The notes beneath the pieces are model-generated. The model saw only the letters and a list, made by a program, of their open reading frames with translations, did not search any database and was not told where the DNA came from. The position numbers and the translations under genes are program-made. Positions 1 to 4,767 of a stretch of DNA of 18,052 nt are shown here, piece by piece (position 1 is the first letter of the stretch; every line of letters starts with the position of its first letter). Source of the DNA: an uncultured Pseudomonadota bacterium (GTDB lineage: Bacteria; Pseudomonadota; Gammaproteobacteria; Burkholderiales; Burkholderiaceae_C); NCBI GenBank assembly GCA_900320815.1, contig ONTY01000048.1:1-18052 (forward strand). Reading direction: 5' to 3'.

Positions 1-654
1 TGCAACCGTCACAACCTGCGCAATACGGTTCGTTGCACCAAACAACTCGTCCATGATGAAACGCAAGTTATCCAATTCATTATCATCGATACTGATGAAA
101 ATAATTCCTTCATCTTTAAGCAACTCCCTCGCAAGCCGTAATCTTGGATAAAGCATTGAACACCAATCCGAATGAAACCGACCGCTCGTGTCAGGGTTGG
201 ATTGAGCGCCCAATCCAGCCTGACGCCTGTAGTTTTCAATGCTATCGCCAAAGCTGTCCTTGTAGACAAAATCATTGCCGGTGTTGTAGGGCGGGTCAAT
301 ATAGATGAGTTTGACTTTGCCGTGGTAGGCGCGCTGCAGGAGCTTGAGCACTTCAAGGTTGTCGCCTTCAATATAGAGGTTTTGCGTGGTGTCCCAGTCC
401 ACGCTTTCTTCGGGCGCGGGGCGCAGTGTGGCGCGGCTTGGCGTCTGGCTCTGGCGGATGGCGTCGCGCTTGCCCGGCCAGGTGAAGCCGTAGCGTTCCG
501 TGCCCTCGTCTACTTCATCGCCAAGCAGCAGGCGCAGCTTGTCAAAGTCAATGCCGCCTTCGCCGAAGGCTTCGGGAAAGAGCGCCTTGAGTTGCGCGAT
601 GCGCTCGGCGACCAAATCAGCGCTTTCAAGGTTCAGTTTTTCAATTTCAGTCAT
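1..654 (-). CDS. Site-specific adenine DNA methyltransferase, Mod type (partial, runs off left edge)
   Basis: An open frame of 218 codons runs without a stop to the window edge, so only the N-terminal part is present. It begins MTEIEKLNLESADLVAERI and contains LYIEGDNLEVLKLL followed by YIDPPYNTGNDFVYKDSFG near residues 118-136. DPPY is catalytic motif IV of N6-adenine/N4-cytosine methylases. Its N-terminal position, with no preceding FxGxG, fits the beta class used by type III Mod subunits; the target-recognition domain and FxGxG should follow beyond the edge. The ATG overlaps the stop of the upstream nuclease gene as ATGA (651-654), and CAGGAG lies seven bases before it, so translation is probably coupled. 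Codon choice changes abruptly about 25 residues after DPPY: GC-rich codons give way to AT-rich ones from about 225 leftward. A Res or other partner beyond the edge is expected but unseen. Confidence 0.9.
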   Translation of the reverse strand, partial: MTEIEKLNLESADLVAERIAQLKALFPEAFGEGGIDFDKLRLLLGDEVDEGTERYGFTWPGKRDAIRQSQTPSRATLRPAPEESVDWDTTQNLYIEGDNLEVLKLLQRAYHGKVKLIYIDPPYNTGNDFVYKDSFGDSIENYRRQAGLGAQSNPDTSGRFHSDWCSMLYPRLRLARELLKDEGIIFISIDDNELDNLRFIMDELFGATNRIAQVVTVA

Positions 655-1940
655 TTTCTGCTCCTGTTTTCTTCAAGGCTGCCTGTGAACTCGCGCTCTG
701 CCAGCTCAATGCGCTGCCTGATTTGCTCCGCCGAGGGAAGGTGTTTGTGTATAATGTCCTGAATCTGCACGTTGGCATAGTTTGCCACGCCGATGGGGGT
801 GTTGATACCCTTGAAAGCCCACTGCACTTCGGTCTGGTTTCGGCTTTTGCAAATCAGCAAGCCGAGTGTTGGGTTATCGTCCGGGGTTTTGAGCAGTTCG
901 TCCACGGCGTTGACGTAGAAGTTCAGCTTTCCAGCAAACTCAGGTTCAAAATCTTTTGCCTTCAGTTCCAGCACCACGTAGCAGCGCAGGCGGATGTGAT
1001 AAAAAAGCATGTCCACCCTGCGGGTTTTGCCTGCGACGATGATTTCCACCTGCCGCCCGACAAAGGCAAAGCCCATGCCCAGTTCGAGCAGAAAGCGGGT
1101 GATATTGTGCTCGAGGGCGTTTTCAAGCTCATGCTCGCCGTATTCAGGGGGCAGCGTAATGAAACCAAGGTCGTAGGTGTCTTTTGTGATGGCCTGGGCA
1201 AGGCGGCTCTGATTCTCCGGCAGCCAGTCACCAAAGTTTGTGACAGCTCGCCCCGCCGTGCGGAACAGCCCCGCTTCAATGGCATTCTGGAGCGCGCTTC
1301 TGCTCCAGTTTTCTTCAATTGTCCTGCGTATATAGAACAACGCCTCGTCAACCGTATCGCACTTTCGGACGATTGCGATGTGGTGCCCCCACGGAACAAA
1401 GCCAAAGACTACAGGGAACGCCATTCCTCCACCGGCCTGGCGGAGCATTGCGGATGAGCCTTCCCCCAATTCTGCGACAGGCTGTCGCAGAAACTTTTCC
1501 CCGACAGCCGGACGAATGACTGCAGCAACCTGTCGCAGTTTTGTGCCGGCGGTTGCAAGCAGGGCTTCCAGTTCTGCACCCGCCTGGTGCAGTTTTTCGG
1601 CGCAAGAGGCTGAGGCGTAGAACTGGTACCACTGCCTCATGTCCCAGAGGTTGCGTGCACTGAAGCCCTTGGCATCAGGAAACTCGCTCTGCAGGTCAAG
1701 GCTGACTTGCTCGACGATGCCCGTGCCCCAGCGTTCCTCTGCCTTGCGTGCCACGAGGTCCCGCCCCAGCGCCCAGTTGAATGCAAGCTGCTCGGCGTTG
1801 ACTTTCACCGCCGCCTTCACCTGGGCGCTGCGCCAGCGGCGTTTGACATCAAGCAGCCACTCGGCGTAATCGGCGTCAAGGCGCACGTCGTGCGACTTCA
1901 CCACCCTTGGCAACGATGGCGGTTTTGGGGTGTCATCCAT
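651..1940 (-). CDS. yhcG: YhcG/DUF1016-family PDDEXK nuclease
   Basis: This 429-residue protein has the YhcG layout. An N-terminal helical domain (about residues 15-110, with LLDVKRRWRSAQVKAAVKVN and FSARNLWDMRQWYQFY) is followed by a repetitive linker (about 115-170). The conserved block FVPWGHHIAIVRK ... TIEENWSRS ... GRAVTNFGDWLP comes next, then the PDDEXK nuclease domain (RRVDMLFYHI ... VVLELKAKDFEPE, giving D and E-x-K) and TPIGVANY near the end. The family is usually found beside restriction or other defence genes as a predicted endonuclease. AAGGAG lies seven bases before the ATG. The gene sits between the helicase remnant and mod and overlaps mod by four bases, so it belongs to the same operon. 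Oddly, the linker is built from four repeated L-[RH]-Q segments encoded by palindromic DNA. Family assignment is firm; activity on DNA is inferred from the retained D/ExK residues. Confidence 0.93.
   Translation of the reverse strand: MDDTPKPPSLPRVVKSHDVRLDADYAEWLLDVKRRWRSAQVKAAVKVNAEQLAFNWALGRDLVARKAEERWGTGIVEQVSLDLQSEFPDAKGFSARNLWDMRQWYQFYASASCAEKLHQAGAELEALLATAGTKLRQVAAVIRPAVGEKFLRQPVAELGEGSSAMLRQAGGGMAFPVVFGFVPWGHHIAIVRKCDTVDEALFYIRRTIEENWSRSALQNAIEAGLFRTAGRAVTNFGDWLPENQSRLAQAITKDTYDLGFITLPPEYGEHELENALEHNITRFLLELGMGFAFVGRQVEIIVAGKTRRVDMLFYHIRLRCYVVLELKAKDFEPEFAGKLNFYVNAVDELLKTPDDNPTLGLLICKSRNQTEVQWAFKGINTPIGVANYANVQIQDIIHKHLPSAEQIRQRIELAEREFTGSLEENRSRK
1427..1592 (-). repeat. Four in-frame 19-bp palindromic units inside yhcG
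   Basis: Four 19-bp units with a 7-5-7 inverted-repeat plan lie at 1574-1592, 1520-1538, 1472-1490 and 1427-1445. The best is CTGCGACAGGCTGTCGCAG (1472-1490), whose arms are perfect and extend to 11 bp at 1470-1492. The others match in 7/7, 5/7 and 6/7 arm positions. Start-to-start distances are 45, 48 and 54 bp, all multiples of three. They encode LHQAGAE, LRQVAAV, LRQPVAE and LRQAGGG in the linker between the N-terminal and nuclease domains. Confidence 0.8.
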
Positions 1941-2008
1941 GACATAGCTCCTTTATGGCTGCAGCAAGCTGGTATGACATAGCTCCTTTATGGCTGCAGC
2001 AAGCTGGT
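1939..2008 (-). repeat. Perfect 35-bp tandem duplication over the yhcG ribosome-binding site
   Basis: The 35 bases at 1939-1973 recur exactly at 1974-2008. Each copy carries, on the minus strand, GCAGCCATAAAGGAGCTATG, so the Shine-Dalgarno sequence is doubled. With one copy removed, the upstream frame would read IKELCHG and stop at the TGA overlapping the yhcG start (ATGGATGA). With two copies it instead ends IKELCHTSLLQP. The perfect identity suggests a recent slippage or unequal-crossover event. Confidence 0.97.
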
Positions 2009-2366
2009 CGCGCTCGCGCTCTTTGGCGTTGATGTCCATGCGCAGCCGCGCGGTTTCGGCAAGGCTGGCGTCACGGTCGCGATAGCGTACGCCAAGGGCG
2101 CTGATGTCTGCCTGCAGGCTTTTGAGTTGCGCCAGCAGCTGCGTGAGGGCGGGTGTGCTGACGTCCGGGCAGCGCGGATATTCGCCCACGGCAGCGATGG
2201 CGGCGGCTTTGGCGGTGCGTTCGCACAGTGCGGTGGCGTAGGCGAGCAGGTCGGTTTGCGGCAGGGCGGTGTAGCGGATGTCGGCAAGGTAGCTGGCGTA
2301 GGCGGCCAGCTCTGGGTCAAAGTGCAGCAATGATTCGGCGCGCTCCAAGACGACGGCGCCTTTTTC
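1953..2366 (-). pseudogene. Orphaned C-terminal fragment downstream of the helicase, possibly DUF4391-like
   Basis: About 135 codons are open in a frame one base off from the helicase, from KGAVVLERAESLLHFDPELAA to a TAA at 1953. The only start-like codon upstream is a TTG inside the helicase gene, with no ribosome-binding site, so it is unlikely to be an independent gene. The tail (LLAQLKSLQADISAL ... ARLRMDINAKERERDQLAAA) looks like a coiled coil. It faintly resembles the C-terminal end of DUF4391 proteins, which often sit between an SNF2 helicase and a Mod methylase. That likeness is from memory and weak. Removing one A from the AAAAA run at the junction (2361-2365) would join it in frame to the helicase as a protein of about 937 residues. 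The last 11 residues before the stop are altered by the 35-bp duplication. Confidence 0.5.
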
Positions 2367-4767
2367 GGTCGGGCCAGAAGTTGACAAGCTGCACGCAGGC
2401 GTTGCTGCTGCCAAGGCGGTCAACGCGCCCGAAGCGCTGAATGATGCGCACGGGGTTCCAGTGGATGTCGTAGTTCACCAGGCAGTCGCAGTCCTGCAGG
2501 TTCTGCCCTTCGCTGATGCAGTCGGTGGCGAACACGACATCTATTTCTCCCTTGGCGCGTTCGCTCTCGCGCAGTTCCTTGGACTTGGGCGAAAAGCGGG
2601 CAAGCACGGCGCCAAAGGTGGCGCGCGCCAGTTTGATGGTGGCGGTGGCGCCTTTGGTGCCGCCGGTGACGAGCGCCGATTCCATGCCGTATTGCGCTTT
2701 CAGGCTGCCGCTGAGTTGCCCATAGAGGTAGCGGGCGGTGTCGGCAAAGGCAGAAAACACGAGCAGCTTGCGGTTGCCGGGGTTGAAGGGCGCAGCGACT
2801 TTGCCGTCAATAAAGCGGCGCAGCTCGGCAAGTTTTTCGTCGCGCTCTGGCGTGACCTGGCGGGCATAGCGGAGCAGTTCTTCCAGCGTGCGGATGTCGC
2901 CTTCCAGGTCAGGGCGCAACCGCAGTGCGTCCACATCGCGCAGGTCGACGCGCACTTTGCCGCCCGCTTCAAACTCGGCGGCATCGTCGTCATCGTCAAA
3001 GCCACTTGCCAGCTCGCCTGTTTCATAGGCGGCTTCTGCGCGCGCGCCGTCAAGCTGGGCAAGCAGTGCCTGCGCGCCGCCGAGCACACGCTCGAGCGTG
3101 ATGCGGAAGCTGCTGATGGAGCTTTCCAGGCGCTTCAACAGGTTCACGCGCAGCAGGTTGGCAACGGCGTGGGTGCGGTTGACCTGGCTCTCAAAGTCGT
3201 TGCCCCATGTGTCAAGGTAGCGCTCCACGTATTTCTGGCGCTTGCCGGGCAAGACGTAGGAGAGCAGTTGATACTGGGCAAAAGAGAGCGAGGCGATGCT
3301 GTCATTCATTTCGCCCACACTGGGCAGCTTGCCGAGTGTGTCCAGGCGCGGCTTGAGGCTGATGGGTGGCAGGCGCGTGGGGAAGGTGGCTGCCTCGTCG
3401 CGGTAGTACTTGGCAATGTGTTTGCGGCTGCGAGCAATGGTGAGGCACACGGCGGTGATGGAGCCGATGTTGTCGGTTTCGGCAAGGTAGGCATCGTCGC
3501 CTTCGGTGATGATTTCTATCTGGTTGCGCAGGTCGAGCAGGCGGTTGTTGACCGGTGTGGCCGAGAGCATGAGCACCTTGGTGCGCACGCCTGCACGTAT
3601 GACGTCGTTCATCAGCCGCTCATAGCGGCTGTGCTGCGTGCGGTCAGTGGGTTTGTTGCGGAAGTTGTGGCTCTCGTCAATGACGATGAGGTCGTAGTTG
3701 CCCCAGCGCAGTGTCTCGAGATTGATGTCGCCGGATAAACCGCCGTAACGCGACAGGTCGGTGTGGTTGAGTACGTCGTAGTTCAGGCGGTCGTCATCCA
3801 ATGGATTGCGTTCGTCATTGGAGGTGTAGAGCGTCCAGTTTTCGCGCAAGCGCTTGGGACAGAGCACCAGAATGCGGTCATTGCGCTCCTGGTAATACTT
3901 GATGATGGCAAGCGCCTCAAAGGTTTTGCCCAAACCCACGCTGTCGGCAATGATGCAGCCCTTGTATTTCTCAAGTTTGCGGATGGCGCCCACAACGGCA
4001 TCCTGCTGAAAGCCGTAGAGCTTTTTCCACACTGTTGACTCGGTAAAGTTCAGGCCGGGCTTGATCGGGTCGCTTTCCTGCTCCACAAAATCATGGAATA
4101 TGTGGTAGAGGGTCAGGAAATAAATAAACTCCGGAGCATTTTCTCGGTAAAGCGTTTCCACCTGCTCCGCCACGCGCGCCGTGACATCAACTGCCAGAGA
4201 GGGATTGCCCCAAACTTGCTCAAACGCGGCTTTCAGGCTGCTCGCTTCGTTTTCCCCCGAAAAAACGCTATAGCCACTGATAACCCCCGCACGATGTTCA
4301 TAGCCCAGCCCTTCAAGGGTGAATGGCACGCTGGAGCCTTGAAAGCCGCTCATGCCCCCGCCATGCTCTACGTGATAGAGCGCGCCGAACTGCACCACTC
4401 CGCTCTGCCGCACCGATTTGAATACTGCTTTCTCGCGCATCCACTGGGCGCATTCGCGCGCAAGGGGACGCTGCTTGAGGCTGTTGCGTAGCGTCAGCTC
4501 AAGCCCTACGCCGCCCACGCCACGCTCGCGGCGCTTTTGTGAGAGCATGAACTCGCGCGGCTCTTTCCCGTCCTGCAGCTGCTGCACAAACGCCGGTTCG
4601 TCAAACAGGAACCGCAGTGCGCCAATGCGCTCAAGCGCGTGCCGGAGTTCCCCGTAAGCAAACACAGTAAAACAAGACGAAATGACGGACAGCACACTGC
4701 CGTCCGCTATCGCGGCAGCAAGCGCATCGCCCAAACGCTCGCTGCCCGTGTTGCTCAAAAACTTCAT
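2317..4767 (-). CDS. SNF2-family helicase with N-terminal phospholipase-D-like region, C-terminally truncated
   Basis: The protein has 816 residues. Its N-terminus (about 1-230) resembles the PLD-like region of this helicase family (ALYHVEHGGG ... GFQGSSVPFTLEGLGY), although the HxK catalytic pair is not evident. The SNF2 core follows: Walker A ADSVGLGKT, the DESH box in LIVIDESHNFRN, motif III LMLSATPVNN, then the second RecA lobe with LLVFSAFADTARYLYGQL, ATDCISEGQNLQDCDCLVNYD and motif VI QRFGRVDRLGS. Relatives continue for a few hundred residues after the VNFWPD that follows motif VI. Here the frame shifts into an arginine-rich tail (RKRRRRLGARRIIAAL) and stops. All motor motifs are therefore present but the C-terminal domain is lost. 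It is the promoter-proximal gene of the defence operon; the ATG at 4767 has only a weak upstream purine stretch. Family is certain; whether it still works is doubtful. Confidence 0.9.
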   Translation of the reverse strand: MKFLSNTGSERLGDALAAAIADGSVLSVISSCFTVFAYGELRHALERIGALRFLFDEPAFVQQLQDGKEPREFMLSQKRRERGVGGVGLELTLRNSLKQRPLARECAQWMREKAVFKSVRQSGVVQFGALYHVEHGGGMSGFQGSSVPFTLEGLGYEHRAGVISGYSVFSGENEASSLKAAFEQVWGNPSLAVDVTARVAEQVETLYRENAPEFIYFLTLYHIFHDFVEQESDPIKPGLNFTESTVWKKLYGFQQDAVVGAIRKLEKYKGCIIADSVGLGKTFEALAIIKYYQERNDRILVLCPKRLRENWTLYTSNDERNPLDDDRLNYDVLNHTDLSRYGGLSGDINLETLRWGNYDLIVIDESHNFRNKPTDRTQHSRYERLMNDVIRAGVRTKVLMLSATPVNNRLLDLRNQIEIITEGDDAYLAETDNIGSITAVCLTIARSRKHIAKYYRDEAATFPTRLPPISLKPRLDTLGKLPSVGEMNDSIASLSFAQYQLLSYVLPGKRQKYVERYLDTWGNDFESQVNRTHAVANLLRVNLLKRLESSISSFRITLERVLGGAQALLAQLDGARAEAAYETGELASGFDDDDDAAEFEAGGKVRVDLRDVDALRLRPDLEGDIRTLEELLRYARQVTPERDEKLAELRRFIDGKVAAPFNPGNRKLLVFSAFADTARYLYGQLSGSLKAQYGMESALVTGGTKGATATIKLARATFGAVLARFSPKSKELRESERAKGEIDVVFATDCISEGQNLQDCDCLVNYDIHWNPVRIIQRFGRVDRLGSSNACVQLVNFWPDRKRRRRLGARRIIAAL

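Follow-up and report, generated by a model that had tools for sequence, protein, structure and literature searches.

Why should the gene for a nuclease carry palindromic DNA inside its own reading frame, always in the same codon phase? The question is posed by a yhcG gene in an 18,052-nucleotide stretch of bacterial DNA (the window, by which we mean the whole of the stretch analysed). An initial annotation of this DNA had drawn attention to four 19-bp palindromes in the gene, described as 7-bp arms separated by 5 bp (7-5-7), and had put forward four possible roles for them: a self-spreading element, a recombination hotspot, an RNA hairpin array or a binding site for the nuclease itself. The family to which the protein belongs (DUF1016_N/YhcG_C, COG4804) was described in 2005 as a helical N-terminal domain of unknown role joined to a predicted nuclease, and in its openly accessible passages that study assigns the N-terminal domain no function and mentions no palindrome in the gene (PMC1189080). 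Here, we bring together comparative evidence suggesting that the palindromes are DNA sites and that DUF1016_N most likely binds them.

The window yhcG gene and its palindromes

Both Pfam domains of the family are found above threshold in the window protein (Table 1), which places it in the YhcG family. Structure matching identifies a PD-(D/E)XK nuclease fold that is close to EndoMS and to restriction enzymes; fold searches with the DUF1016_N model gave no clear match among solved structures. The protein also matches the PADLOC profile PDC-S02 (E 2.7e-127), which would make it, judged by profile similarity, part of a candidate defence system. Upstream of yhcG lies a Snf2/ResIII-type helicase (window 1953-4767) in two overlapping minus-strand frames, 2317-4767 and 1953-2423, the shorter of which has no Pfam match; perhaps this reflects a frameshift of the gene or of the assembly. 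A tandem duplication (window 1940-2008, with 34-base copies from 1940 and 1975) spans the yhcG start and the end of the upstream frame.

Table 1 Features of the window yhcG gene and its product (residues numbered as in window YhcG)
Feature	Position	Strand	Details
yhcG/DUF1016 family gene	651..1940	minus	429-aa product
DUF1016_N	aa 31-227		Pfam, 116.2 vs cut-off 32.8 bits
YhcG_C, PD-(D/E)XK nuclease domain	aa 250-389		Pfam, 181.2 vs cut-off 32.5 bits
Palindromic site	1427..1445	minus	encodes LRQAGGG; 7/9 pairs as 9-1-9, 6/7 arms
Palindromic site	1472..1490	minus	CTGCGACAG.C.CTGTCGCAG; 9/9 pairs as 9-1-9, perfect 7-5-7; best self-site
Palindromic site	1520..1538	minus	encodes LRQVAAV; decayed; 6/9 pairs as 9-1-9, 5/7 arms
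Palindromic site	1574..1592	minus	encodes LHQAGAE; 8/9 pairs as 9-1-9, perfect 7-5-7
Helix 95-109 (GFSARNLWDM...)	1614..1658	minus	R96, W99 and D100 covary with half-site positions 3, 2 and 5
Helix 184-193 (WGHHIAIVRK)	1362..1391	minus	G185 and I188 covary with positions 7/8 and 6
Helix 214-222 (RSALQNAIE)	1275..1301	minus	R214 and S215 covary with positions 7 and 8

The positions of the four sites, their steps of 45, 48 and 54 bp and their common codon phase in the minus-strand gene are as first described, but only those at 1472 and 1574 are perfect 7-5-7 palindromes. All four are better framed as two 9-bp arms around a single central base (9-1-9). The site at 1472-1490 has an AATT flank on one side. 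Nor do the repeats lie, as had been thought, in a linker between the two YhcG domains: they fall in an insert within DUF1016_N, the N-terminal one of the two. The symmetry seen in the window is by itself indecisive, since the window as a whole contains 12 perfect 7-5-7 19-mers against 1.1 expected for uniform bases, only two of them in yhcG, and the gene has three more 19-mers at 6/7 beyond the four sites. It is the comparison with homologues that decides.

Palindromes across the YhcG/DUF1016 family

We assembled 203 distinct DUF1016/YhcG ORFs of at least 250 aa, gathered by homology and not by the presence of palindromes. Of these, 170 contain one or more in-frame 9-1-9 palindromes that reach 8/9 pairs. 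In phase 0 there are 103 perfect 19-mers and 133 at 8/9, where uniform bases would give 0.3 and 8.0; the corresponding counts in the other two phases are 0 and 9, and 1 and 4. When synonymous codons were permuted within genes, the number of perfect sites fell from 103 to a mean of 0.68, with a maximum of 3 in 40 runs. The proposal that selection acts at the nucleic-acid level is strongly supported by this loss of symmetry in the shuffled genes. Palindromy is not universal in the homologues, however: 33 of the 203 ORFs lack an 8/9 site, eight of these having 7/7 outer arms at the usual place and several having nothing recognisable.

In DUF1016 genes that lack the repeats and have unrelated linker peptides, a palindrome occurs at a single place, its start seven codons ahead of the Leu or Ile that precedes a [PS]-W-x-H motif. 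Among the 191 ORFs that have the W motif, pairing at exactly this place is 7/9 or better in 87; the remainder include long-linker genes like that of the window, in which the sites are further upstream. In different genes the palindrome occupies the same place with unrelated sequence, the inner bases differing widely from gene to gene with symmetry maintained via paired changes. Good sites number one to five per gene, with several per gene in some clades.

The same pattern can be followed in the encoded repeats. Across 102 distinct linkers, taken from 120 homologues listed among 6657 matches, the residues of a heptad for the most part change together in the way expected of a palindrome, LHQ being paired with xGAE, LQQ with xVGE, xIGE or xVAE, and LRQ with xVAE, with exceptions such as seven cases of LQQxGAE. 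Synonymous sites in the DNA of 80 related loci show Leu usually encoded by CTG before Ala GCA and by CTC before Gly GGA, a codon choice through which both arms stay complementary. Candidate heptads in 72 genes are perfect palindromes in 58 of 134 cases and reach 6/7 in a further 43.

The yhcG gene of E. coli K-12 (L369), which has no W-x-H motif, contains two in-frame 8/9 sites and a third at 7/9 with AATT flanks. A perfect dyad is also seen about 15 bp past its stop codon, with a core of the GCAGACA/CCAGACA type. Relatives of yhcG are present on plasmids and phages. In Wolbachia phage WO (L501) a yhcG-like gene is located between those for the terminase large subunit and the portal protein, with a palindrome at the usual place that is 7/9 or weaker (ACGCAGCAG.G.TTGCTGCAC).

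Extent and nature of the dyad

Of the 63 reference sites adjoining the W-x-H codons, 60 entered an alignment of 27-mers, and in these sixty sequences the dyad extends to 27 bp, in the form AATT-[9]-N-[9]-AATT. Pairing runs four bases outward from the 19-bp core (0.73, 0.78, 0.67 and 0.79) and lies at 0.21-0.40 beyond that, and the flank pairing expected from the protein and codon usage is 0.41, 0.43, 0.27 and 0.42. Over the 60 distinct 27-mers, 89.5% of cells pair, as against 59.9% in shuffled and 34-38% in slid alignments, the figures for the inner pairs being inflated because the 19-mers had been pre-selected at 7/9 or better, which the outer four bases had not. Compensatory arm changes, which the initial annotation had proposed as a check, are mostly borne out: changes on both sides abound in the 27-mers and the covariation score is 0.727 compared with 0.205 after shuffling, although two of the five measures applied to the 60 27-mers (pairs with a change on both sides and further pair types) do not exceed the shuffles.

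Is this symmetry that of DNA or of RNA? Hairpins in yhcG mRNA that control translation or decay, or that bind protein, would account for sense-strand inverted repeats able to form stems of 7-8 bp, and some mismatches lean that way: at position 9 of the 63 W-adjacent sites G.T outnumbers A.C by 15 to 6, and the outermost pair of the 27-mers includes 11 G.U. At positions 1-8 of the same 63 sites, however, the balance is reversed (3 versus 11). Across 160 distinct sites, G.T/T.G and A.C/C.A mismatches are about equally frequent (13 versus 17 at positions 1-8; 17 versus 18 at position 9), whereas RNA helices tolerate G.U, and so the constraint appears to be on DNA rather than on an RNA hairpin. 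The pairs of a structured mRNA would be kept via G.U too, a preference that does not emerge over all distinct sites. Furthermore, the symmetry continues up to the base beside the centre, where RNA could hardly pair, and Rfam gave two matches only, both far under the gathering score. RNA hairpins were rejected as the main cause on the grounds of these mismatch and Rfam results, and with them the suggested RNA hairpin array is disfavoured. On balance, the palindrome would seem from such comparisons to be a DNA dyad and not an RNA helix.

Covariation of dyad bases with protein residues

If the dyad is a protein-binding site, its bases might be expected to change together with residues of the protein that reads them. 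Half-site positions were compared with 319 protein columns by mutual information in 176 genes (effective number 41), with palindrome-coded residues masked and a background correction applied; the residue numbers used are those of the window YhcG, 4 lower than the open-frame count. The top seven covarying columns sit on three helix starts (Table 1), in the order R96 with position 3, R214 with 7, D100 with 5, S215 with 8, G185 with 7, I188 with 6 and W99 with 2; a further column, which lies in the N-terminal tail, comes eighth with the same value (0.35) as the sixth and seventh. The highest values observed (0.74, 0.62, 0.56, 0.45 and 0.42) exceed the maximum of 0.37 reached in 30 free permutations, but permutation within clusters of more than 45% identity (30 runs) reaches 0.51 and therefore only the top three clear the stricter control. 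An AlphaFold model (mean pLDDT 71.2) predicts that helices 95-109, 184-193 and 214-222 begin at the covarying residues, and a model of a relative's N-terminal domain (pLDDT 80.4, pTM 0.78) has predicted helices at the same places.

The individual associations are marked. In tables that count distinct combinations of residue and half-site, Arg occurs with G3 in 47 of 50 cases and Trp with T2 in 32 of 33; Asn occurs with A5 in 23 of 23 and Arg with C5 in 18 of 19; Arg or Lys accompanies C7 in 56 of 59 and Arg accompanies C8 in 37 of 38; and W-G-H is found with AC at positions 6-7 in 26 of 30. Pairs of this kind (similar to Arg-G and Asn-A) resemble the classical residue-base preferences, those of double-helix readout, which is a further argument against an RNA-level element. 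A protein-only set, from which relatedness was not removed, gives a corresponding picture, with FSxRNL accompanied by Ala at heptad position 6 in a ratio of 99:2, FSxTNL by Gly in a ratio of 88:0, and Asp at the place of D100 by an Arg heptad in a ratio of 13:2. Within the PWxHH clade, Arg is found with CC in 24 of 27 cases and Lys in 3 of 3, Gly with AC in 21 of 27 and Met with GC or TC in 11 of 11. A tree-based test of the WxH coupling, which had only eight independent pairs to draw on, scored 4.7 in the same direction, 0.3 in the opposite direction and 3.0 with no difference (p 0.0625).

Bases can also be predicted from residues. Drawing only on proteins less than 55% identical, and taking the majority base as baseline, the predicted base is right at position 8 in 111/124 cases (majority base 36/132), at position 7 in 110/128 (87/132), at position 3 in 101/131 (69/132), at position 5 in 105/115 (104/132) and at position 6 in 64/95 (61/132); position 2 gains nothing from the residue code (84/123 versus 94/132). 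For the window protein the prediction is T2 G3 G5 A6 C7 A8, which agrees with both halves of site 1472-1490 at 6/6 positions, the fit at G5 being partly circular because the Asp-G5 rule comes from two table rows that probably include the window itself. The other sites agree less well: at 1574 the halves score 4/6 and 3/6, at 1427 4/6 and 2/6, and at 1520 6/6 on the left and 4/6 on the right.

That the dyad bases covary with the starts of three helices (GFSxxNL, WxH and WSxx) points to DUF1016_N most likely binding the site in its own gene, which would be the most economical reading of the covariation. Amongst the four roles first suggested, a binding site for the system's own nuclease would accordingly fit best, with half-site bases tracking all three predicted helices.

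Genomic distribution of the site

A search of the genome for the palindrome outside yhcG, as had been suggested, shows that CTGCGAC-N5-GTCGCAG occurs perfectly once in the window's own genome, inside the window yhcG (site 1472-1490). Of 36 loose matches in this genome, only two are full palindromes and both are in yhcG; the genome also has a second yhcG with different dyads and one truncated copy. In 14 genomes chosen for a yhcG site of the GTCCAAC type, 15 of 16 perfect copies are inside yhcG. The longer pattern AATT-N5-ACAG-N-CTGT-N5-AATT has eight matches in 321 genomes of the class, four in yhcG and one upstream of yhcG (G324), the others being two intergenic palindromes elsewhere and one match that is not palindromic. 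As a rough control, a pattern spaced at 25 instead of 27 bp gave two matches in the 321 genomes, neither of them palindromic. One of the two intergenic dyads (L537, 1501-1527) lies between convergent frames that by eye resemble ParE and BatD and the other (L540, 1501-1527) lies beside a frame resembling, again by eye, an OLD-type ATPase; these could be terminators or real sites.

This distribution bears directly on the idea of a self-spreading element. A mobile coding palindrome spreading inside genes, or protein repeats with chance symmetry, would explain why several copies occur in one gene with heptads alike in sequence. Against this stand the near confinement of full palindromes to yhcG in the genomes searched, the constancy of gene position combined with unrelated sequence between genes, and the loss of symmetry on codon shuffling. 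Genome-wide spread of the palindrome was rejected for the window's own genome and for the 14 others.

Within 1.30 Mb of yhcG loci, some of them overlapping, we found 120 distinct AATT-dyads at thresholds of 7/8 flank bases and 7/9 pairs, compared with 0.67 expected; the W-x-H place accounts for 67 of these, and among the remaining 53 many fall at other points of yhcG ORFs. Outside ORFs, AATT-dyads with at least 8/9 pairs number five (in four genes) in the 48.9 kb directly upstream and two in 706 kb of other flank. The upstream dyad matches the in-gene core in L495, an Arthrobacter plasmid, and in L473; those of L353 and L067 fail to match the site inside their own gene. Three AATT-dyads are seen upstream of L480, at about -69, -145 and -209 from the open frame, and only that at -69 (7/9 pairs) matches the in-gene core. 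Across 180 genes, upstream cognates show no clear excess, the best match reaching 11/14 or better in 6 as against 21 of 895 control pairings. A general upstream operator was rejected for this reason, though AATT-flanked dyads are enriched upstream.

In viral contigs, exact occurrences of CTGCACC-N5-GGTGCAG and CTCCAAC-N5-GTTGGAG were scanned in 240 stretches among the matches listed; only L172 and L204 had at least two related sites within 300 bp, and most of the viral matches thus appear to be single copies that arose by chance. A profile search of these viral contigs with the protein found no relative.

Broken copies and paralogues

Damaged copies of yhcG offer a different view of the site. 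Of 37 broken copies, 10 lose frame or homology between +30 and +72 nt of the site centre, with frameshifts near +52 in two; many of the 37 had been fetched as truncated-looking, and three (L435, L440 and L357) just reach the end of the sequence. The excess of breaks may be due in part to the choice of fragments, to how they were found and to alignment, and the ends of local HMM alignments may cluster for other reasons. As regards the suggested recombination hotspot, breaks just past the site, frequent in broken copies, are only suggestive. Copies in which the break falls 30-72 nt past the palindrome centre and the palindrome is kept are L398, L399, L400, L402, L395, L396, L489/L508, L404, L514 and L521. 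Of 19 short or broken copies checked, 16 keep at least 6/9 pairs at the site (L395 and L421 being the same place).

Paralogues listed in 19 genomes differ in half-site, which fits with separate self-control. Genome G185, where two yhcG copies (the second being L408) have a half-site in common, speaks against a need for paralogues to differ.

What might the site be for?

From the computations, most family genes keep a dyad in their own coding sequence and, in genes with W-x-H, this lies between the codons for the first and second helices. The best explanation, to which we attach moderate confidence, is that YhcG binds its own in-gene dyad and so represses itself. DUF1016_N would bind DNA sequence-specifically, and the 19-27 bp dyad would be occupied by two YhcG molecules with one half-site each, the GFSxxNLxxM helix reading the outer bases and the WxH and WSxx helices the inner ones. 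Less confidently, binding within the gene, and in a few genes also at a dyad immediately ahead of the start codon, might block transcription, and a potentially harmful nuclease might thereby repress its own gene. Self-repression fits both with the upstream copies and with the likely toxicity of the nuclease. With the operator placed beside the codons for recognition, specificity and target would not become separated in horizontal transfer, and the repeats of the window would be several such sites in a tolerant linker.

The main rival, unlikely but deserving of attention, is self-cleavage or homing: a PD-(D/E)XK dimer would bind the dyad and, under some trigger, cut its own gene or related alleles there, leading to gene conversion, exclusion of related elements or self-inactivation. 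The similarity of the nuclease fold to EndoMS and restriction enzymes would suit such an activity, as would the near confinement of the site to yhcG copies, the presence of relatives on plasmids and phages, and the breaks and frameshifts just past the site. A good site is nevertheless kept in most intact genes, such that free cutting would be suicidal, the clustering of breaks may reflect alignment ends and a sample of truncated-looking copies, and most of the short or broken copies checked retain their pairs. The yhcG genes may be self-addressed, with the cognate target inside the reading frame and the nuclease acting on copies of its own gene, such that alleles sharing the address would be cut, converted or excluded, a suggestion that we regard as tentative. 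Were it true, specificity and target would diversify together, as in incompatibility groups or a self-recognising selfish element.

It is improbable, in our judgement, that the self-site serves as a parking place or guard that keeps the nuclease inactive until it is released by an attack on host DNA or by loss of the gene, in the manner of an addiction or anti-phage system. The covariation that suggests binding applies equally here, several sites per gene in some clades could hold more protein, and PADLOC lists the family as a candidate for defence; yet the good sites in each gene would hold few molecules and no trigger or partner was found. An RNA-level element seems to us highly improbable in view of the mismatches, as does a mobile palindrome or chance symmetry among protein repeats in view of the distribution and the codon shuffles.

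The YhcG family gains a concrete hypothesis, that of sequence-specific dimeric DNA binding with a likely target that can be read from each gene, and its specificity thereby becomes testable in many species, including with E. coli K-12 yhcG. The in-gene site offers a testable handle on the control or aiming of poorly understood enzymes. If binding of the in-gene dyad is correct, genome sequence would by itself suffice for deciphering a protein-DNA recognition code, the gene and its protein's target being one molecule, and the family may be a source of very specific DNA-binding domains.

Comparison with known systems

In autoregulation of the PurR type, an operator is located within the coding region of the regulator's own gene, and a single regulator has many other targets. 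By analogy, YhcG would likewise be a DNA-binding protein controlled in part via a site in its own reading frame; the difference is that YhcG is a nuclease family spanning phyla, in which each gene has dyads of its own and these covary with the encoded protein. The palindromic elements of Rickettsia, according to the openly accessible passages of the source, are selfish sequences of about 100-150 nt in intergenic DNA, RNA genes and coding genes (PMC4316617). The likeness lies in palindromic DNA tolerated in frame within genes. The YhcG sites are unlike them in being 19-27 bp, gene-specific and nearly confined to yhcG in the genomes searched, and similar copies in many genes of one genome, as in Rickettsia, were not seen in the window's own genome or in the 14 others.

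No printed precedent came to light, in the open PMC subset searched, for a cognate dyad inside a gene that covaries with its protein across a family: none of the titles, starts of abstracts or passages covered there deals with palindromes in yhcG or DUF1016 genes. I-TevI and related T4 intron endonucleases are described, in the passages openly available, as transcriptional autorepressors (PMC2988022). The resemblance would lie in a site-specific nuclease that represses its own gene by binding an operator there that is similar to its target, the YhcG side of the comparison being a prediction. As set out in the same passages, I-TevI is a GIY-YIG intron enzyme with a separate homing site and an operator that lies upstream, over the promoter (PMC2988022), whereas YhcG has a PD-(D/E)XK fold and a dyad inside the coding sequence, usually at one place; dyads upstream of the gene, where I-TevI has its operator, occur in only a few genes of the YhcG family. 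A homing endonuclease cuts alleles that lack the element and is copied into them; the YhcG site sits inside the element's own gene. The nearest mechanism is the I-TevI autorepressor, and the nearest sequence phenomenon the coding palindrome of Rickettsia.
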